Assembly (NCBI RefSeq): GCF_036227325.1
Contig: NZ_CP109467.1
Location: forward strand, 5,394,001-5,458,000
Source of the DNA: Streptomyces sp. NBC_01465
Lineage (GTDB): Bacteria > Actinomycetota > Actinomycetes > Streptomycetales > Streptomycetaceae
DNA: 64,000 bases
Direction of reading: 5' to 3'
Shown here: piece after piece, positions 38,743-45,060 of the stretch
How the letters are laid out: each line of letters starts with the position of its first letter
Numbering within the stretch: the stretch's first letter is position 1
Notes under the pieces: generated by a model
Told to the model about the DNA's origin: nothing
What the model saw: only the letters and a program-made list of their open reading frames with translations
Databases searched by the model: none
Made by a program: the position numbers and the translations under genes

Positions 38743-40131
38743 TCACGGGTGCGTCATGCCCAGCACGTCCAGGGCGGAGTCCAGTTGCTCCAGCGTCAGG
38801 TCGCCCCGCTCGACGTAGCCTCCCTCCAGCACCGTCTCCCGGATCGTCTGCCGCCGCGCCAGCGCCCGCTTCGCGACCTTCGCCGCCTCCTCGTACCCGA
38901 TGTACTTGTTCAGCGGCGTCACCACCGACGGCGACGACTCCGCGTACTCCCGCGCCCGCTCCACGTGCGCCGTGATCCCGTCCACCGTGCGGTCCGCCAG
39001 CAGGCGCGTGACATTGGCCAGCAGCCGCACCGATTCCAGTACGTTCTTCGCGATCACCGGCAGCATCACGTTCAACTCGAAGTTGCCCGCGGCCCCGGCC
39101 GCCGCCACCGTCGCGTCGTTCCCCGTGACCTGCGCCGCCACCATCAGCACCGCCTCGGGGATCACCGGGTTCACCTTCCCCGGCATGATCGACGACCCCG
39201 GCTGCAGATCCGGCAGCGAGATCTCCGCCAGGCCCGTGCGCGGCCCCGACGCCATCCACCGCAGATCGTTCGCGATCTTCGTCAGACCGACCCCGATCAC
39301 CCGCAGCTGCCCGGACGTCTCCACCAGACCGTCCCGCGCCCCCTGCGCCTCGAAGTGGTTGCGCGCCTCGGTGAGCGGCAGCCCCGTCGCCCGCGCGACC
39401 TCCGCGATGACCGCGGCCGAGAAGCCGGGAGGAGTGTTGATCCCCGTCCCCACCGCGGTCCCCCCGAGCGGCAGCTCGGCCAGCCGCGGCAGCGACGCGT
39501 GCAGCCGCTCGACCCCGTACCGGACCTGCGCCGCGTACCCCCCGAACTCCTGCCCCAGCGTCACCGGCGTCGCGTCCATCAGATGCGTACGCCCCGACTT
39601 CACGACCTCCGCGAACTCCTCCTCCTTGCGCTCCAGCGCCAGCGCCAGCTGCTCAAGTGCCGGGATCAGATCGGCGGTTACGGCCGCCGTGGCCGCGATG
39701 TGGATCGACGACGGGAACACGTCATTGGACGACTGGGAGGCGTTGACGTGGTCGTTCGGGTGCACGTCGCGCCCCAGCCGCTCGCTCGCCAGCGTCGCCA
39801 CGACCTCGTTCATGTTCATGTTGGAGGAGGTGCCGGAGCCGGTCTGGAAGACGTCCACCGGGAACTGGTCGTCCCACTGCCCGCCCGCGACCTCCCCGGC
39901 CGCGTCCGCGACCGCCCCGGCGATGTCCTTGTCGAGGACCCCGAGCTCCGCGTTGACCTTGGCCGCGGCCGCCTTGATCCGGGCCAGCGCCTCGATGTGG
40001 GCGCGCTCCAGGCGCTGCCCGGAGACGGGGAAGTTCTCCACCGCGCGCTGGGTCTGCGCCCGCCATTTGGCGTCGGCGGGGACCCGTACCTCGCCCATGG
40101 AGTCGTGCTCGATGCGGTACTGCTGCGTCAT
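38743..40131 (-). CDS. fumC: Fumarate hydratase class II
   Basis: 462 aa. The ATG at 40131 has GGAGG upstream. It interconverts fumarate and malate in the TCA cycle without an iron-sulfur cluster. The superfamily signature [15 protein letters not shown] is intact, as are [31 protein letters not shown] and [20 protein letters not shown] (catalytic His region). A second, unrelated class I fumarase is encoded at 43393-45060. FumC would be the oxidation-resistant form. Confidence 0.96.
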
Positions 40132-40200: not shown

Positions 40201-41052
40201 ATGATCGGAATACTCTCCGTGGTCGCCGCAGCACTCACCGCGACCCTCGCCCCCGTCCAGCAGGGCGGCCAGTCCGCCGACGACATACGGGCGTACTGGA
40301 CCCCCCAGCGCATGCACGAGGCGATGGCCGCCTCGGCCCCGGACGGCGATCCGGCCCCGCCGGACGGCGTCCCCTGGACCCAGGGCAAGGACTCCGTACG
40401 CCAGGTCGGCCGCCTCTTCATGGTCCTCCCCGCCGGCCAGAAGGCCACCTGCACCGCCGCCGTCGTCGACTCCCCGAACCACGACACCATCGCCACGGCG
40501 GGCCACTGCGTCCACCTCAACGAGTACGGCGGCTTCATGAAGGCGCTGATGTTCGTGCCGGGGTACGACACCGACGACTGGCCGCACGGAGGGTTCGCCG
40601 CCCGCTCCGTCGGCATCGCCCCGGCCTGGGCGGACAAGGAGGACCACAAGGCGGACTTCGCCTTCGTCGCCCTCGACACCGACGTGAAGAACCGCCACGT
40701 CCAGGACGTGGTCGGCGCCCGGCGGGCGGTCTTCGCCCCGGTGGCGGGGGAGAAGACGGCGCTCGGCTATCCGTACGTGAAGCCGTACGACGGCGAGACC
40801 CTCCAGTACTGCTCCGGCCCCACCACCCCGGTCGACGACCCCCGCCTGGCCGGCGGCGAGCAGCTCCAGCCGTGCCGAATGACGAACGGCGCGAGCGGCG
40901 GTCCCTGGTACGCGCGCACCGCCCAGGGCGAGGAGGTCCAGGTCGGGGTCACCAGCTCGCGGCTGAAGTCGGCGGGGGCGGACGACGAGGCGTGGGGGGC
41001 GATGTTCGACGACACGGCACGTCAACTCCACGACGCGCAGGGGAAGTTGTAG
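40201..41052 (+). CDS. Secreted trypsin-like serine protease
   Basis: 283 aa. A short hydrophobic signal ([18 protein letters not shown]) is followed by a mature domain with the chymotrypsin-fold triad: His in [11 protein letters not shown], Asp in KADFAFVAL and Ser in [11 protein letters not shown]. Two Cys pairs (ATCTA/GHC and YCSG/PCRM) could form disulfides. It belongs to the Streptomyces V8/trypsin-like exported peptidases. No ribosome site precedes the ATG, and the 69-bp gap to fumC leaves room for a leaderless mRNA. The propeptide, if any, is short. Confidence 0.88.
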
Positions 41053-41056
41053 CGAG

Positions 41057-41081
41057 GGGGGCGGGCGTGGCGCCCGCCCCC
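41057..41081. terminator. Bidirectional hairpin terminator
   Basis: A perfect 11-bp stem, GGGGGCGGGCG with CGCCCGCCCCC, around the loop TGG. It lies between the convergent protease and channel-like genes. Confidence 0.85.
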
Positions 41082-41090
41082 GTAACGCCG

Positions 41091-42446
41091 CTAGGTCGCG
41101 AAGACGAACAGCGTGAAGACGAAGAACAGCCCGATCAGGACCGGCCAGTACAGCAGCGTCGGCAGCAGGTTGTCCTGCCACTCCAGCGCGCGGAACTTCG
41201 TCTCGGAGCCGATCAGGATGGCGTTCGCGAAGATGCCCATGATCACGATGTACTGCGCGATCGCGAAGTACTCCAGATAGGTGAGCGACGTGTCCCCGGC
41301 GATCTCCCGGATCTGGGTCTGGTCCACGACCACGACCAGCAGCAGCGAGACCGAGAACGAGATCGCCGTCCAGGTGGAGAAGCCGAAGCGCGGGTTCTTG
41401 TTGTCGTCCTTCGTGTAGACGAAGAGCGCCAGGAACATGATCGCCGCGATGAAGAAGGACTGGAGCAGCTTCCCGGCGAGCGGGCCCGCCCAGCTGCGCT
41501 CCATGCCGACGTTGAAGTAGAGCTCGGGCGCGGCGACGAACGGCTTGTTCCAGTCCTGGAGGCCCTGGGTCATCGTGTACTTGTGCTGGTCGAAGCTCCA
41601 GCCGGTGAAGTACGGCGCCCAGCCGCTGGTCACGATGTCCTGGTCGAGGCCGATCTCGCCGTACTTCCAGGGCGGGTACGAGGCGAAGTCGGGGACCAGC
41701 ACATCGTTGGTGAAGGTGGCGTTCGACCACATCCGCAGCCAGATGTTCTGCTTGTCCAGCGGGTACTGGGCGTAGTCGAACTTCTGGCGCAGGGTCAGGT
41801 TGAAGTGCCAGCCCTTGAGGCGCTGCCCGTCGGTCGTCTTGGTGTCGTACGCCTCGTCGAGCGAGTACCCGTCCGGCGCCTCGGGGAAGACGACGCCCAT
41901 CGAGGACTCGGGGATGTCGGGGGAGTAGCGCTGCCAGACATAGCCGCTGACCTCGACCTCCTGGGGGCTGGCGAACTTGGAGCCCTGGATGAACACTCCG
42001 GTCGGGATGTAGCGGAGCTTGACGCCCGGGAAGGTCTTCTTCATGTACGCCGAGGTGTCCTTGGTGCTCATCAGCGGCGTCCCGACGATGGTGTCGGTGA
42101 CCTTGTCGTGCGAGACGATCTGCCAGATCGTGCCGATGCCGAGCGCGAAGATCAGGCTCGCCACGGTCGCCATCAGCGCGCAGCGTCTGGTCTCCATCCG
42201 GAACGGCCTGATCAGCGCGGCCGCGCCGAACAGACACACCAGGACGAGGCACCCCAGGAACGGGGCCCAGCCGGAGCGCTGGGTGTGGCCCGCGTGGACG
42301 CTGCCGTCGGCGAAGTAGACGATGCCGAAGACGACGGCGCCCACGGCGGAGAGCGCCAGCAGGGCGAGGTTGATCCTCTCGGCCTTGCGGACCCGGGTGG
42401 ACGGCGGGGCTGCGGGGCGGTGACGCTCCTTCTCGGTGTCGGTCAT
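41091..42446 (-). CDS. Pentameric ligand-gated ion channel (Pro-loop receptor)-like membrane protein
   Basis: 451 aa. Three N-terminal membrane segments (about 26-44, 63-80, 92-110) precede a beta-rich outside domain (112-320) and four C-terminal helices: M1 326-344, M2 357-375, M3 389-412, M4 427-450. The beta domain holds [20 protein letters not shown], in which Y-P-L-D matches the Pro-loop (FPxD) of Cys-loop-type receptors, followed by an IWLRMWS strand. The M2-M3 link [17 protein letters not shown] matches the typical YLTYxD..xxxY pattern. The extra N-terminal helices are unusual. It is likely an ion channel or receptor; the ligand is unknown. It lies 10 bp downstream of the 41-aa ORF. 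Confidence 0.65.
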
Positions 42447-42456
42447 GGTCCGCAGA

Positions 42457-42582
42457 TCACCCCGGCATGATGGCTAGAAGGTTGTCGAGCTCGCAGTCCG
42501 CGATCTCTCCGGCGTTCGCGTCCTCGAGCTGTTCCACGGTCGCGTCGTCGAGCGAGTCGGTGCCCTGGCGGACGGTGCTCAT
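42457..42582 (-). CDS. 41-aa acidic peptide sharing LDNLLAI-x-PG with its neighbour
   Basis: The ATG at 42582 overlaps the stop of the upstream gene (ATGA) and has GGGAG upstream, so it is translationally coupled. The peptide is acidic, with DDATVEQLEDANAGEIADC followed by ELDNLLAIMPG at the C-terminus, and has a single Cys at residue 30. Its last 18 residues match residues 97-114 of the upstream exported protein at 12 positions, including LDNLLAI-x-PG. There is no signal peptide. It could be a regulator or assembly factor, a RiPP-like precursor, or a degenerate duplicate. It is not an artefact of overlapping frames, because it has its own start and no conserved gene opposite. Confidence 0.6.
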   Translation of the reverse strand: MSTVRQGTDSLDDATVEQLEDANAGEIADCELDNLLAIMPG

Positions 42583-43265
42583 GACGTACTCCCGGAAGGG
42601 CTCGGGGTGGTGGTGGGAGACGGCGTGGCGGACGGCGTGGGCGTGGCGGTCGGCTGCGGCTTGTCCCACGGGAACTTGAAGTCCGGCACGGTGAAGGTCG
42701 GCAGCGGGAACGGGATGAACGCCTGGGCGATGCTCAAACCGAGCCCGAAGAAGATGTCGGCGGCGAGCAGTGCCAGATGCACCATCAGGAACGCGGCGGT
42801 GCCCATGAACGACGCCACGTCGCCCTTCACCCCGGCTTCGACGAGCGCGCGCTGGTCCGTCTTGAGGAGCGCGACCGAGCCCCTGATGTCGTAGCCGGCC
42901 ATCTTCGCCCGCGTGAGGGAGCCGCCGGGGATGATCGCGAGGAGGTTGTCGAGCCCCTTGTCGGCGTCGGCCAGAGCGGCGTCGAGCGTCTTGGGGTCCC
43001 GCTCCCCGCCGATGACCAGCCCGGCCAGCTCGGCGGTCGCCCCGGTGGCCCCGCCGAACTTCCCGACCGTACGGAACCCGACGGCCATCCGCTCACGCTC
43101 CCGGAGCGGGTCCTCCTGGATGGTCAGCTTGGAGGACGCGCTCGGGGTGGGCGTCGGGGTGGGTGTCGGCGTCGGCGGTACGGGGGAGGCGGCTGCGACG
43201 GGGCCGGCGACCAGGGAGCAGCAGAGGGCGGCGCTGACGACCAGACAGAACTTTTTCCGGGCCAT
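42579..43265 (-). CDS. Exported Pro/Thr-rich protein with one membrane helix, unknown function
   Basis: 228 aa from the ATG at 43265 (a GTG at 43304 is possible). The signal peptide is ARKKFCLVVSAALCCSLVAG, with cleavage near VAAA-SP. A TPTPTPTPTPS linker follows, then a conserved-looking helical domain (45-150) containing DKGLDNLLAIIPGGSLTRAK, a hydrophobic stretch (about 153-186), and a Thr/Pro/Ser tail (TATPTPSATPSPTTTPSPSG). I do not recognise the family. It heads an operon with the 41-aa peptide and the channel-like protein, and shares the LDNLLAI-x-PG motif with the peptide. Confidence 0.75.
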   Translation of the reverse strand: MARKKFCLVVSAALCCSLVAGPVAAASPVPPTPTPTPTPTPSASSKLTIQEDPLRERERMAVGFRTVGKFGGATGATAELAGLVIGGERDPKTLDAALADADKGLDNLLAIIPGGSLTRAKMAGYDIRGSVALLKTDQRALVEAGVKGDVASFMGTAAFLMVHLALLAADIFFGLGLSIAQAFIPFPLPTFTVPDFKFPWDKPQPTATPTPSATPSPTTTPSPSGSTS

Positions 43266-43288
43266 GAGGGTGGGCGTTCCTTCCGCAC

Positions 43289-43315
43289 GGGACACACGAG
43301 GCACACGTGTGTCCC
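43289..43315 (-). promoter_or_regulatory. Dyad in the leader of the channel-like operon
   Basis: GGGACACAC and GTGTGTCCC (9 bp each) are separated by 9 bp. A perfect 10-bp palindrome, CACACGTGTG (43302-43311), overlaps the right arm. It lies 24-50 bp upstream of the 43265 ATG and could be an operator or an mRNA hairpin. Confidence 0.5.
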
Positions 43316-43328
43316 ACCCTCAGCCACA

Positions 43329-43368
43329 AGGTCACCCTCCGCAATCTATGGATTGCGGTGGGTGACCT
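43329..43368 (-). terminator. 40-nt near-perfect hairpin after class I fumarase
   Basis: AGGTCACCC-T-CCGCAATC pairs with GATTGCGG-T-GGGTGACCT around the loop TATG, giving a 17-bp stem with one T-T mismatch. It lies 24 bp after the fumarase stop and 64 bp before the next gene, so it can end fumarase transcription. The extreme symmetry also allows an operator role. There is no T tract. Confidence 0.6.
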
Positions 43369-43392
43369 CGGTGTGATGGGGCGGCGCTTCCC

Positions 43393-45060
43393 TTACGCGA
43401 GCCCGGGGCCGCGGACCGGGATGCTCGTGAAGGTCGGCGCGGGCGCAGGCTCCGTGAAGAAGTCGTTGCCCTTGTCGTCGACCACGATGAACGCGGGGAA
43501 GTCCTCCACCTCGATCTTCCAGACCGCCTCCATGCCGAGCTCCTCGTACTCGACGACCTCGACCTTCTTGATGCAGTCCTGCGCCAGACGGGCCGCGGGT
43601 CCGCCGATCGAGCCCAGGTAGAAGCCGCCGTGCGCGTCGCACGCGTCCGTGACCTGCTTCGAGCGGTTGCCCTTGGCCAGCATCACCTTGGAGCCGCCCG
43701 CCGCCTGGAACTGCTCCACGTAGGAGTCCATACGGCCGGCCGTGGTCGGGCCGAAGGAGCCGGAGGCGTAGCCCTCGGGGGTCTTGGCCGGGCCCGCGTA
43801 GTAGACCGGGTGGTCCTTCAGGTACTGCGGCATGTCCTCGCCCGCGTCGAGGCGCTCCTTGATCTTGGCGTGCGCGATGTCGCGGGCCACGACCAGCGGG
43901 CCGTTGAGGGAGAGGCGGGTCTTGACCGGGTACTTGGTGAGCTCGGCCAGGATCTCGTCCATGGGCTGGTTGAGGTCGATCTTGACCACGTCGCCGGCCT
44001 CGTCGAGGTGCTCGTCCGTCGTCTCCGGGAGGAACCTCGCCGGGTCGCGCTCCAGCTGCTCCAGGAAGACGCCCTCGGCGGTGATCTTCGCCAGCGCCTG
44101 GCGGTCCGCCGAGCAGGAGACGGCGATCGCGACGGGCAGGGACGCGCCGTGGCGGGGCAGGCGGACGACCCGTACGTCGTGGCAGAAGTACTTGCCGCCG
44201 AACTGCGCGCCGATCCCGATCTTCTGCGTCAGCTCGAAGACCTTCTGCTCCAGCTCCACGTCACGGAAGCCGTGGCCGGTGGCCGAGCCCTCGGTGGGCA
44301 GCTCGTCCAGGTAGTGCGCGGAGGCGTACTTCGCGGTCTTCAGCGCGAACTCGGCGCTCGTGCCGCCGACGGTGATCGCCAGGTGGTACGGCGGGCAGGC
44401 CGCCGTACCGAGCGAACGGATCTTCTCCTCCAGGAACTTCATCATGGACGCCTCGTTGAGGACGGCCTTCGTCTCCTGGTAGAGGAAGGACTTGTTGGCC
44501 GAGCCGCCGCCCTTGGCCATGAAGAGGAACTTGTACGCGCCGCCGTCGGTCGCGTAGAGCTCGATCTGCGCGGGCAGGTTCGAGCCGGTGTTCTTCTCCT
44601 CCCACATGGTGATCGGCGCCATCTGGGAGTAGCGCAGGTTGAGCTGCGTGTACGCGTCGTAGATGCCCCGCGAGAGAGCCTCCTCGTCGCCGCCCTCGGT
44701 CAGCACGTTCTGGCCGCGCTTGCCCATGACGATCGCCGTGCCGGTGTCCTGGCACATCGGGAGGACGCCGGCCGCCGCGATGTTGGCGTTCTTGAGGAGG
44801 TCGAGCGCGACGAACTTGTCGTTGCCCGAGGCCTCGGGGTCGTCGATGATCTTGCGCAGCTGGGCGAGGTGCGCCGGGCGCAGGTAGTGCTGGATGTCGT
44901 GGATCGCCTCGGCGGAGAGCTTGCGCAGTGCCTCGGGGTCGACCTTGAGGAACGTACGGCCGTCGGCCTCGAAGGTGGAGACACCCTCGGCGGTCACCAG
45001 GCGGTAGGGCGTGGTGTCCTCTCCCAGAGGGAGCAGATCGGAGTACGCAAACTCTGGCAT
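43393..45060 (-). CDS. Fumarate hydratase class I (iron-sulfur)
   Basis: 555 aa, the fused FumA/FumB form with N-terminal alpha and C-terminal beta parts. The ATG at 45060 is chosen because AGGA lies 9 bp upstream; the ATG at 45069 would touch it. Cluster cysteines are in [33 protein letters not shown] and the VSCSADRQ region. The beta part shows [20 protein letters not shown] and [20 protein letters not shown]. It hydrates fumarate to malate using an oxygen-sensitive 4Fe-4S cluster. It duplicates the activity of the nearby fumC product. Confidence 0.95.

Follow-up and report, generated by a model that had tools for sequence, protein, structure and literature searches.

A 41-codon open reading frame ending in an exported-protein signature, placed between an exported helical protein and a predicted pLGIC in Streptomyces sp. 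NBC_01465

A small open reading frame (ORF) of 41 codons lies between the gene of an exported helical protein and the gene of a predicted pLGIC in Streptomyces sp. NBC_01465, and the end of its product repeats the signature of the exported-protein family. The locus is situated in a stretch of 64,000 nucleotides (contig NZ_CP109467.1, positions 5,394,001 to 5,458,000), hereafter called the window, in which the three genes follow each other on the minus strand. By its statistics the small ORF looks like a real gene, and as far as sequence comparison reaches it is an orphan among the genomes examined. Our preferred but tentative reading is that it encodes a translated, lineage-specific microprotein which would act by helix mimicry through its exported-signature tail. 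The features of the locus, in coordinates of the window, are as follows.

42579..43265, minus strand: gene of the exported protein, 228 aa, with the family signature LDNLLAIIPGG at residues 105-115
42457..42582, minus strand: small ORF, 41 aa, acidic, with the tail EIADCELDNLLAIMPG
42460..42489, minus strand: LDNLLAIMPG, ten codons common to the small ORF and the exported gene, from the codon comparison
42924..42953, minus strand: counterpart LDNLLAIIPG (residues 105-114) in the exported gene, at the C-terminal end of the predicted helix 91-111
42579..42582, minus strand: ATGA stop/start overlap of the exported gene TGA and the small ORF ATG, from the sequence
42593-42589, minus strand: GGGAG, Shine-Dalgarno-like, 6 bases upstream of the small ORF ATG, by eye
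42457..42463, minus strand: GGGGTGA, end of the small ORF; by eye also Shine-Dalgarno-like with respect to the channel gene, whose ATG follows after 10 bases
41091..42446, minus strand: channel gene, 451 aa, pLGIC fold (predicted)
43330..43367, no strand given: inverted repeat with 17-base arms and one mismatch, between the fumarase and exported genes, by eye

These coordinates agree with the initial annotation, which had the small ORF joined to the exported gene by ATGA and followed after 10 bp by the channel gene: the spacer between the small ORF stop and the channel ATG (42446) consists of ten bases (42456-42447). The terminal P-G-stop of the small ORF is encoded by CCG GGG TGA, and since this contains the Shine-Dalgarno-like GGGGTGA there is a possible second cause for the PG ending common to the small ORF and the exported protein. 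Upstream of the exported gene a class I fumarase gene is set apart by the inverted repeat at 43330-43367, which is probably the end of the fumarase transcript. A terminator scan did not flag this repeat and returned three weak terminator-like sites, all within the channel gene. No promoter was found by a scan at the locus, and an Rfam search of the region 40900-43500 gave no match at gathering scores. Downstream, on the opposite strand, comes a gene whose match to trypsin is weak and narrowly passes the cut-off (E 0.00029), and then fumarase C. In Pfam the four flanking genes were assigned to fumarase C, the weak trypsin match, class I fumarase and a DUF1707/LiaF-like protein. Between positions 38743 and 45069 of the window, the exported-channel unit and the trypsin-like gene are enclosed by two fumarase genes, one of fumarase C and one of class I. 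By eye, a fumarase-like gene also lies upstream of the exported gene in four other loci (L030, L031, L058 and L063), and a similar inverted repeat occurs 3' of the fumarase in L058.

The gene that had been described as channel-like is, by its predicted fold, a pLGIC. The model (pLDDT 88.4, pTM 0.86) has three N-terminal helices (17-46, 60-79 and 86-112), followed by a beta-sandwich with strands between residues 145 and 317 and by four pore-domain helices (320-343, 358-383, 390-413 and 427-450). It had 676 matches in the PDB with E values up to 0.001, and the best 50 of these 676 were pLGIC chains; matches to GABA-A, nicotinic, GLIC and ELIC chains had E values of about 1e-9, with a TM-score by target length of up to 0.69 for GLIC. 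At the sequence level, a profile of 19 channels (the channel itself and its close relatives) had no matches among PDB sequences at E up to 1, and Pfam found no ligand-gated-channel family in the channel. The protein contains YPLDKQ at residues 228-233, in which P229 is invariant and Y228 and D231 are nearly invariant among 57 aligned sequences; we take YPLD to correspond to the Pro-loop motif. A protein search with the channel returned 118 proteins including the query (7,999 candidates scored). Those close channels (P0005-P0023) that carry organism names are from Streptomyces, and the distant ones, some of them with Cache domains, include proteins of Chloroflexi, a cyanobacterium, an archaeon and Proteobacteria. 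A contig scan gave no loci with the channel alone as query and 27 loci with the alignment as query; on plasmids, four distant channels were found, in Acaryochloris and Vibrio. The host genome has a second channel copy, 45% identical (L028, G000:C1:4709961-4711253), which by eye lies beside a different exported-looking protein.

The exported protein has, by eye, an N-terminal signal-peptide-like segment and Pro/Thr-rich linkers, and a helical bundle is predicted at residues 53-183. In the helical model (pLDDT 65) the motif forms the C-terminal end of helix 91-111, and the structural matches listed for this model are generic helical bundles, FAT domains among them. Pfam assigned none of the 11 family members (0/11) to a family at E 0.01. 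In a search of 5.8 billion proteins (7,996 candidates scored) two proteins were found besides the query itself. Further members were added from loci in S. mesophilus (L063), S. indicus (L030), NRRL B-3428 (L031) and G284 (L058), and four more genes consist of an unlinked one in G284 (L064), one in S. spiroverticillatus (L075), a host paralogue (L026) and a diverged two-part gene (L078). The alignment of 11 members shows no variation at L105, D106, N107, L108, G114 and G115, and LDNLLAI...PG is the signature of the family. The unlinked paralogues in the host genome (L026:1459-2055) and in G284 (L064:1171-1863) carry the LDNLLA signature; a 56-codon ORF without the motif overlaps the end of the host paralogue. 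The two-part protein of NRRL B-3428 (L078:1402-2337) has GELDNLLGGFAGG in its second half and a degenerate version in its first half. Of 150 genomes, 10 apart from the host gave weak matches to the single exported protein (E 1e-6 to 9e-4, L016-L025), and none of these was recovered with the family profile at E 1e-6. Viral contigs and plasmids yielded no relative of the exported family.

Sequence evidence supports the view that the exported gene belongs together with channels of the close form. The two genes are directly adjacent in three of the relatives examined (L030, L031 and L058). A channel match at E 1e-40 occurred in 4 of 392 Streptomyces genomes, in three of them as the close form (G000, the host, with G205 and G284), and in a survey of 319 Streptomyces genomes the exported family (E 1e-6) was detected in these same three. 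At E 1e-4, an exported-family gene was present in 6/6 genomes with a close channel and in 0/6 with a distant channel only, in a comparison of 13 genome handles of which 12 are distinct (S. mesophilus appears as both G205 and G512, with identical rows) and from which L036, L038 and L040-L055 were left out. The co-occurrence is partly ascertained, several profile sequences having been taken from beside the same channels, and the counts ignore kinship. The more independent part of the evidence is provided by the absences and by S. spiroverticillatus (G509), where the two genes are not neighbours and the exported gene is absent from the 11 kb around the channel (L029).

The small ORF product, MSTVRQGTDSLDDATVEQLEDANAGEIADCELDNLLAIMPG, was compared with its upstream neighbour. 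In the best ungapped window of 18 residues 12 are identical, at exported residues 97-114, and the longest common word is the 7-mer LDNLLAI (exported residues 105-111). Upon shuffling of the small ORF a common word of 7 residues arose once in 20,000 shuffles, and 12/18 identities were reached in 0/300 shuffles, with a maximum of 8. Against the exported-family profile, which includes the neighbouring exported protein itself, the small ORF scored 15.5 bits, a value not attained in any of 20,000 shuffles (best 9.9). The pattern YTNGAYAAYYTNYTNGSNNNNNNNSCNGG had six matches across 384 Streptomyces genomes, and the same pattern read backward, as a control, had one. Three of the six are in the host genome, namely the exported gene, the small ORF and the unlinked exported paralogue, and one each was found in G205, G284 and G239; we read those in G205 and G284 as exported-family proteins and that in G239 as an unrelated LacI-like frame. 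A looser motif pattern matched 12/12 genomes and was set aside. The word LDNLLAI was not found in the literature searched. The match noticed at the outset, with its 12 of 18 positions, contiguous LDNLLAI and PG ending, is thus confirmed, and by the shuffles and the pattern search in 384 genomes it is not due to chance. The copied residues include the invariant L105, D106, N107, L108 and G114. Over the last ten residues the small ORF product agrees with the exported stretch in 9/10 positions, the sole change being I to M, and this form, LDNLLAIMPG, is also natural in the family member P0002 of NPDC059009. It is highly probable, in our judgment, that the small ORF tail either descends from the exported signature or is constrained to it.

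We consider the small ORF very likely to be translated, and its codon usage is gene-like. Taken whole, it ranks at the 42nd percentile among 41-codon windows from the long gene-like ORFs of the window, a score reached by 0.2% of off-frame windows. Its first 25 codons, which have no clear similarity to the exported gene, are at the 66th percentile (0.07% of off-frame windows as high), and the last 16 are weaker, at the 19th percentile (7% as high). The motif itself contains the rare Leu codons CTT and CTA, which account for 2% and <0.5%, respectively, of the Leu codons of the 27 ORFs used for training. The product is acidic, with 10 D/E and 1 K/R, and no signal-peptide-like segment was seen by eye, nor a hydrophobic run in residues 1-30. 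Between the small ORF and the exported gene the last ten codons have 6 nucleotide differences, all at third positions (6/10, as against 0/20 at first and second positions). The six preceding codons have 9 base differences across all codon positions, so that the 16 aligned codons differ at 15 bases (2, 4 and 9 at positions 1, 2 and 3, respectively). For this segment of ten codons, which was picked after the match had been seen, the third-position-only pattern has a p of 0.00035 if all changes occurred in the small copy and of 0.03 if half did. In neutral simulations at most one amino-acid difference remained in 0.2% of runs with all changes in the small copy and in 15% with half of them in the exported copy. 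The codon comparison suggests amino-acid constraint on the tail, which we regard as a lead, not as proof.

The slot between the exported and channel genes is arranged differently in relatives. In G284 (L058) and NRRL B-3428 (L031) the exported gene runs straight into the channel gene through a stop/start overlap (GTGA), and in S. indicus (L030) 12 bases separate the two genes; such overlaps or short gaps indicate that close coupling is probably ancestral. The small ORF is missing from this slot in 3/3 relatives that have the exported-channel pair and were examined as DNA (L030, L031 and L058). In S. mesophilus the exported gene and the channel are both present on separate contigs, each near a contig end, and in S. 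spiroverticillatus both are present but apart. The slot before the S. spiroverticillatus channel (L029:4784-4942), with no adjacent exported gene of the family, contains a different, unrelated ORF of 52 codons that by eye has a signal-peptide-like start; its codon usage is at the 47th percentile, with 0.15% of off-frame windows as high. Searches with the small ORF as protein query gave itself and one match at E 1.08 in seven genomes, nothing below E 0.16 in 149 other Streptomyces genomes, and itself as the sole protein listed from the protein database. Thirteen weak matches in 12 of the 149 genomes (E 0.16-0.69) were rejected; the 7/13 inspected resemble frames inside or opposite unrelated genes. 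The three-gene order proposed in the initial annotation therefore holds for the adjacency of the exported and channel genes and fails for the small ORF between them (0/3), and with the small ORF lacking in all three examined relatives that have the pair, a designed three-part module is not supported. The initial annotation had named such a lack of conservation as refuting its idea, which by this measure fails as far as these relatives go.

The explanation that competes most closely with helix mimicry, and is nearly as likely, takes the small ORF as a coupling bridge or duplication remnant: a short duplication would have inserted about 130 bp, and the ORF would be translated for no other purpose than handing ribosomes on to the channel gene from the end of the exported one, its peptide being inert. 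The orphan status of the small ORF fits this, as do the direct overlaps and the 12-bp gap in relatives, since the window keeps the coupling via ATGA and GGGGTGA. A bridge needs no specific residues, yet the last ten codons differ at third positions only; likewise, the N-terminal 25 codons score strongly as coding sequence although they do not clearly resemble the exported gene. Whether the small peptide does more than bridge translation is, in our estimate, about evenly balanced. The orphan status could also be read as chance, with an untranslated small ORF, found in a single genome among those searched, whose tail similarity is accidental, but the shuffle tests, the rarity of the motif across genomes and the coding statistics make this very unlikely. 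An older three-gene unit restricted to a narrow clade, in which NPDC059002, NPDC059009 and NPDC050095 have the small ORF and other lineages lost or never gained it, appears unlikely. These nearest relatives are known here as proteins alone. In NPDC059002, which has the closest channel (77%), the exported protein and the channel carry the neighbouring locus tags 19650 and 19645, between which an unannotated 41-codon ORF could be hidden, and the LDNLLAIMPG form of NPDC059009 P0002 points the same way. Annotation pipelines often omit such short ORFs. Against a clade-wide unit stands the protein search, which listed no homologue of the small ORF.

Two further readings give the peptide a life outside the cell. 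As a decoy resembling a pheromone inhibitor, the released C-terminal peptide would compete with an excised fragment of the exported protein for binding to a receptor, for which the channel encoded in the same operon is a candidate, and the agreement of 9/10 residues ending exactly at the C-terminus would suit this. Sex pheromone inhibitor ORFs have a hydrophobic, signal-like N-terminus for secretion, which on inspection the small ORF lacks, with its 10 D/E and 1 K/R; moreover, the motif lies inside a predicted helical bundle (residues 105-114) and not in a signal peptide, and no such ORF accompanies the channel and exported genes of three relatives. We hold this reading to be quite improbable. 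The initial annotation had also considered a RiPP-like precursor, the C-terminal CELDNLLAIMPG being a modified and exported core peptide. The small acidic ORF with a Cys-containing C-terminal segment is compatible with it, but Pfam found no modification enzyme among the four flanking genes and the tail is already accounted for by the exported-family signature, which makes a RiPP extremely unlikely.

For helix mimicry, the explanation we prefer, we infer a translated small ORF of copied origin whose product would stay in the cytoplasm and bind a target there. The ORF would have arisen in the gap that separates the exported helical protein from the pLGIC, its partner, and would have acquired as its tail a partial copy of the end of the signature helix (LDNLLAIxPG) of the exported gene. 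It would help to pass translation on from the exported gene to the channel gene, with ATGA at its start and its stop inside the Shine-Dalgarno-like site of the channel gene. The tail would then have been retained at the amino-acid level, and if it is so kept the peptide most likely mimics the helix. The acidic peptide, with an amphipathic LDNLLAI helix at its end, would compete for or pre-occupy the surface used by the exported helix, either on the exported bundle itself or on a shared partner. Action in the cytoplasm is favoured by the lack of a visible export signal; since the exported protein leaves the cell, the two would meet only before export. Evidence against mimicry comes from the weaker coding statistics of the last 16 codons, from the rare CTT-CTA codons within the motif, from the failure to find a second copy of the small ORF and from the three relatives that manage without it. 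The more specific proposal of a new regulatory microprotein, born by partial duplication inside its own operon and serving as a helix decoy that regulates the exported partner before export or tunes channel assembly, is doubtful on the present evidence.

In this operon a bacterial relative of neurotransmitter receptors is paired with an exported helical protein that belongs to no known family. The small ORF may exemplify a microprotein that came into being when a helix of the neighbouring gene was copied, and should its tail prove important, mimicking a helix would be an easy way to gain a new regulator; the decoy reading, if true, would mean that a microprotein from a within-operon partial duplication controls a channel unit of the nerve-receptor type in a single lineage. 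To our knowledge, bacterial pLGICs are mostly without known physiological partners, which makes the exported protein a testable candidate for a subunit, sensor or ligand carrier, and we know of no precedent for a helical-bundle operon partner of a pLGIC. The system was not recognised in a literature search on pLGICs with Streptomyces or with an operon partner and on Streptomyces small ORFs, which for the most part covered papers outside subscription journals.

Compared with known systems, the channel resembles bacterial pLGICs of the GLIC/ELIC type in its predicted beta-sandwich and four-helix pore domain and differs from them by three extra N-terminal helices. DeCLIC is likewise a pLGIC with an added N-terminal module, which here consists of three predicted membrane helices. 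Tasneem et al. place bacterial pLGICs in predicted operons with genes of PBP-II or Cache proteins, so that a soluble sensor partner would be a known theme (PMC549065). In contrast to the PBP or Cache partners of those operons, the partner here is an exported helical-bundle protein without a Pfam family, and an extra small ORF is present (PMC549065). For the small ORF, the enterococcal pairs cCF10/iCF10 and cAD1/iAD1 offer a parallel, in which a short peptide with its own gene is the competitor of a similar one released by cleavage of an exported protein (PMC7117660). The enterococcal pheromone is cut from a lipoprotein signal peptide (PMC7117660), whereas the stretch considered here lies within a predicted bundle and no export signal can be seen in the ORF. 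A further analogy is the paxillin LD motif LDXLLXXL, which forms an amphipathic helix that docks on a hydrophobic patch of four-helix-bundle FAT domains, and with which LDNLLAI(I/M) has the same spacing (PMC7703752). The exact consensus differs at the last position, which is not Leu in LDNLLAIM or LDNLLAII; as an analogy, the LD motif provides a precedent for the helix docking suggested for the small ORF.
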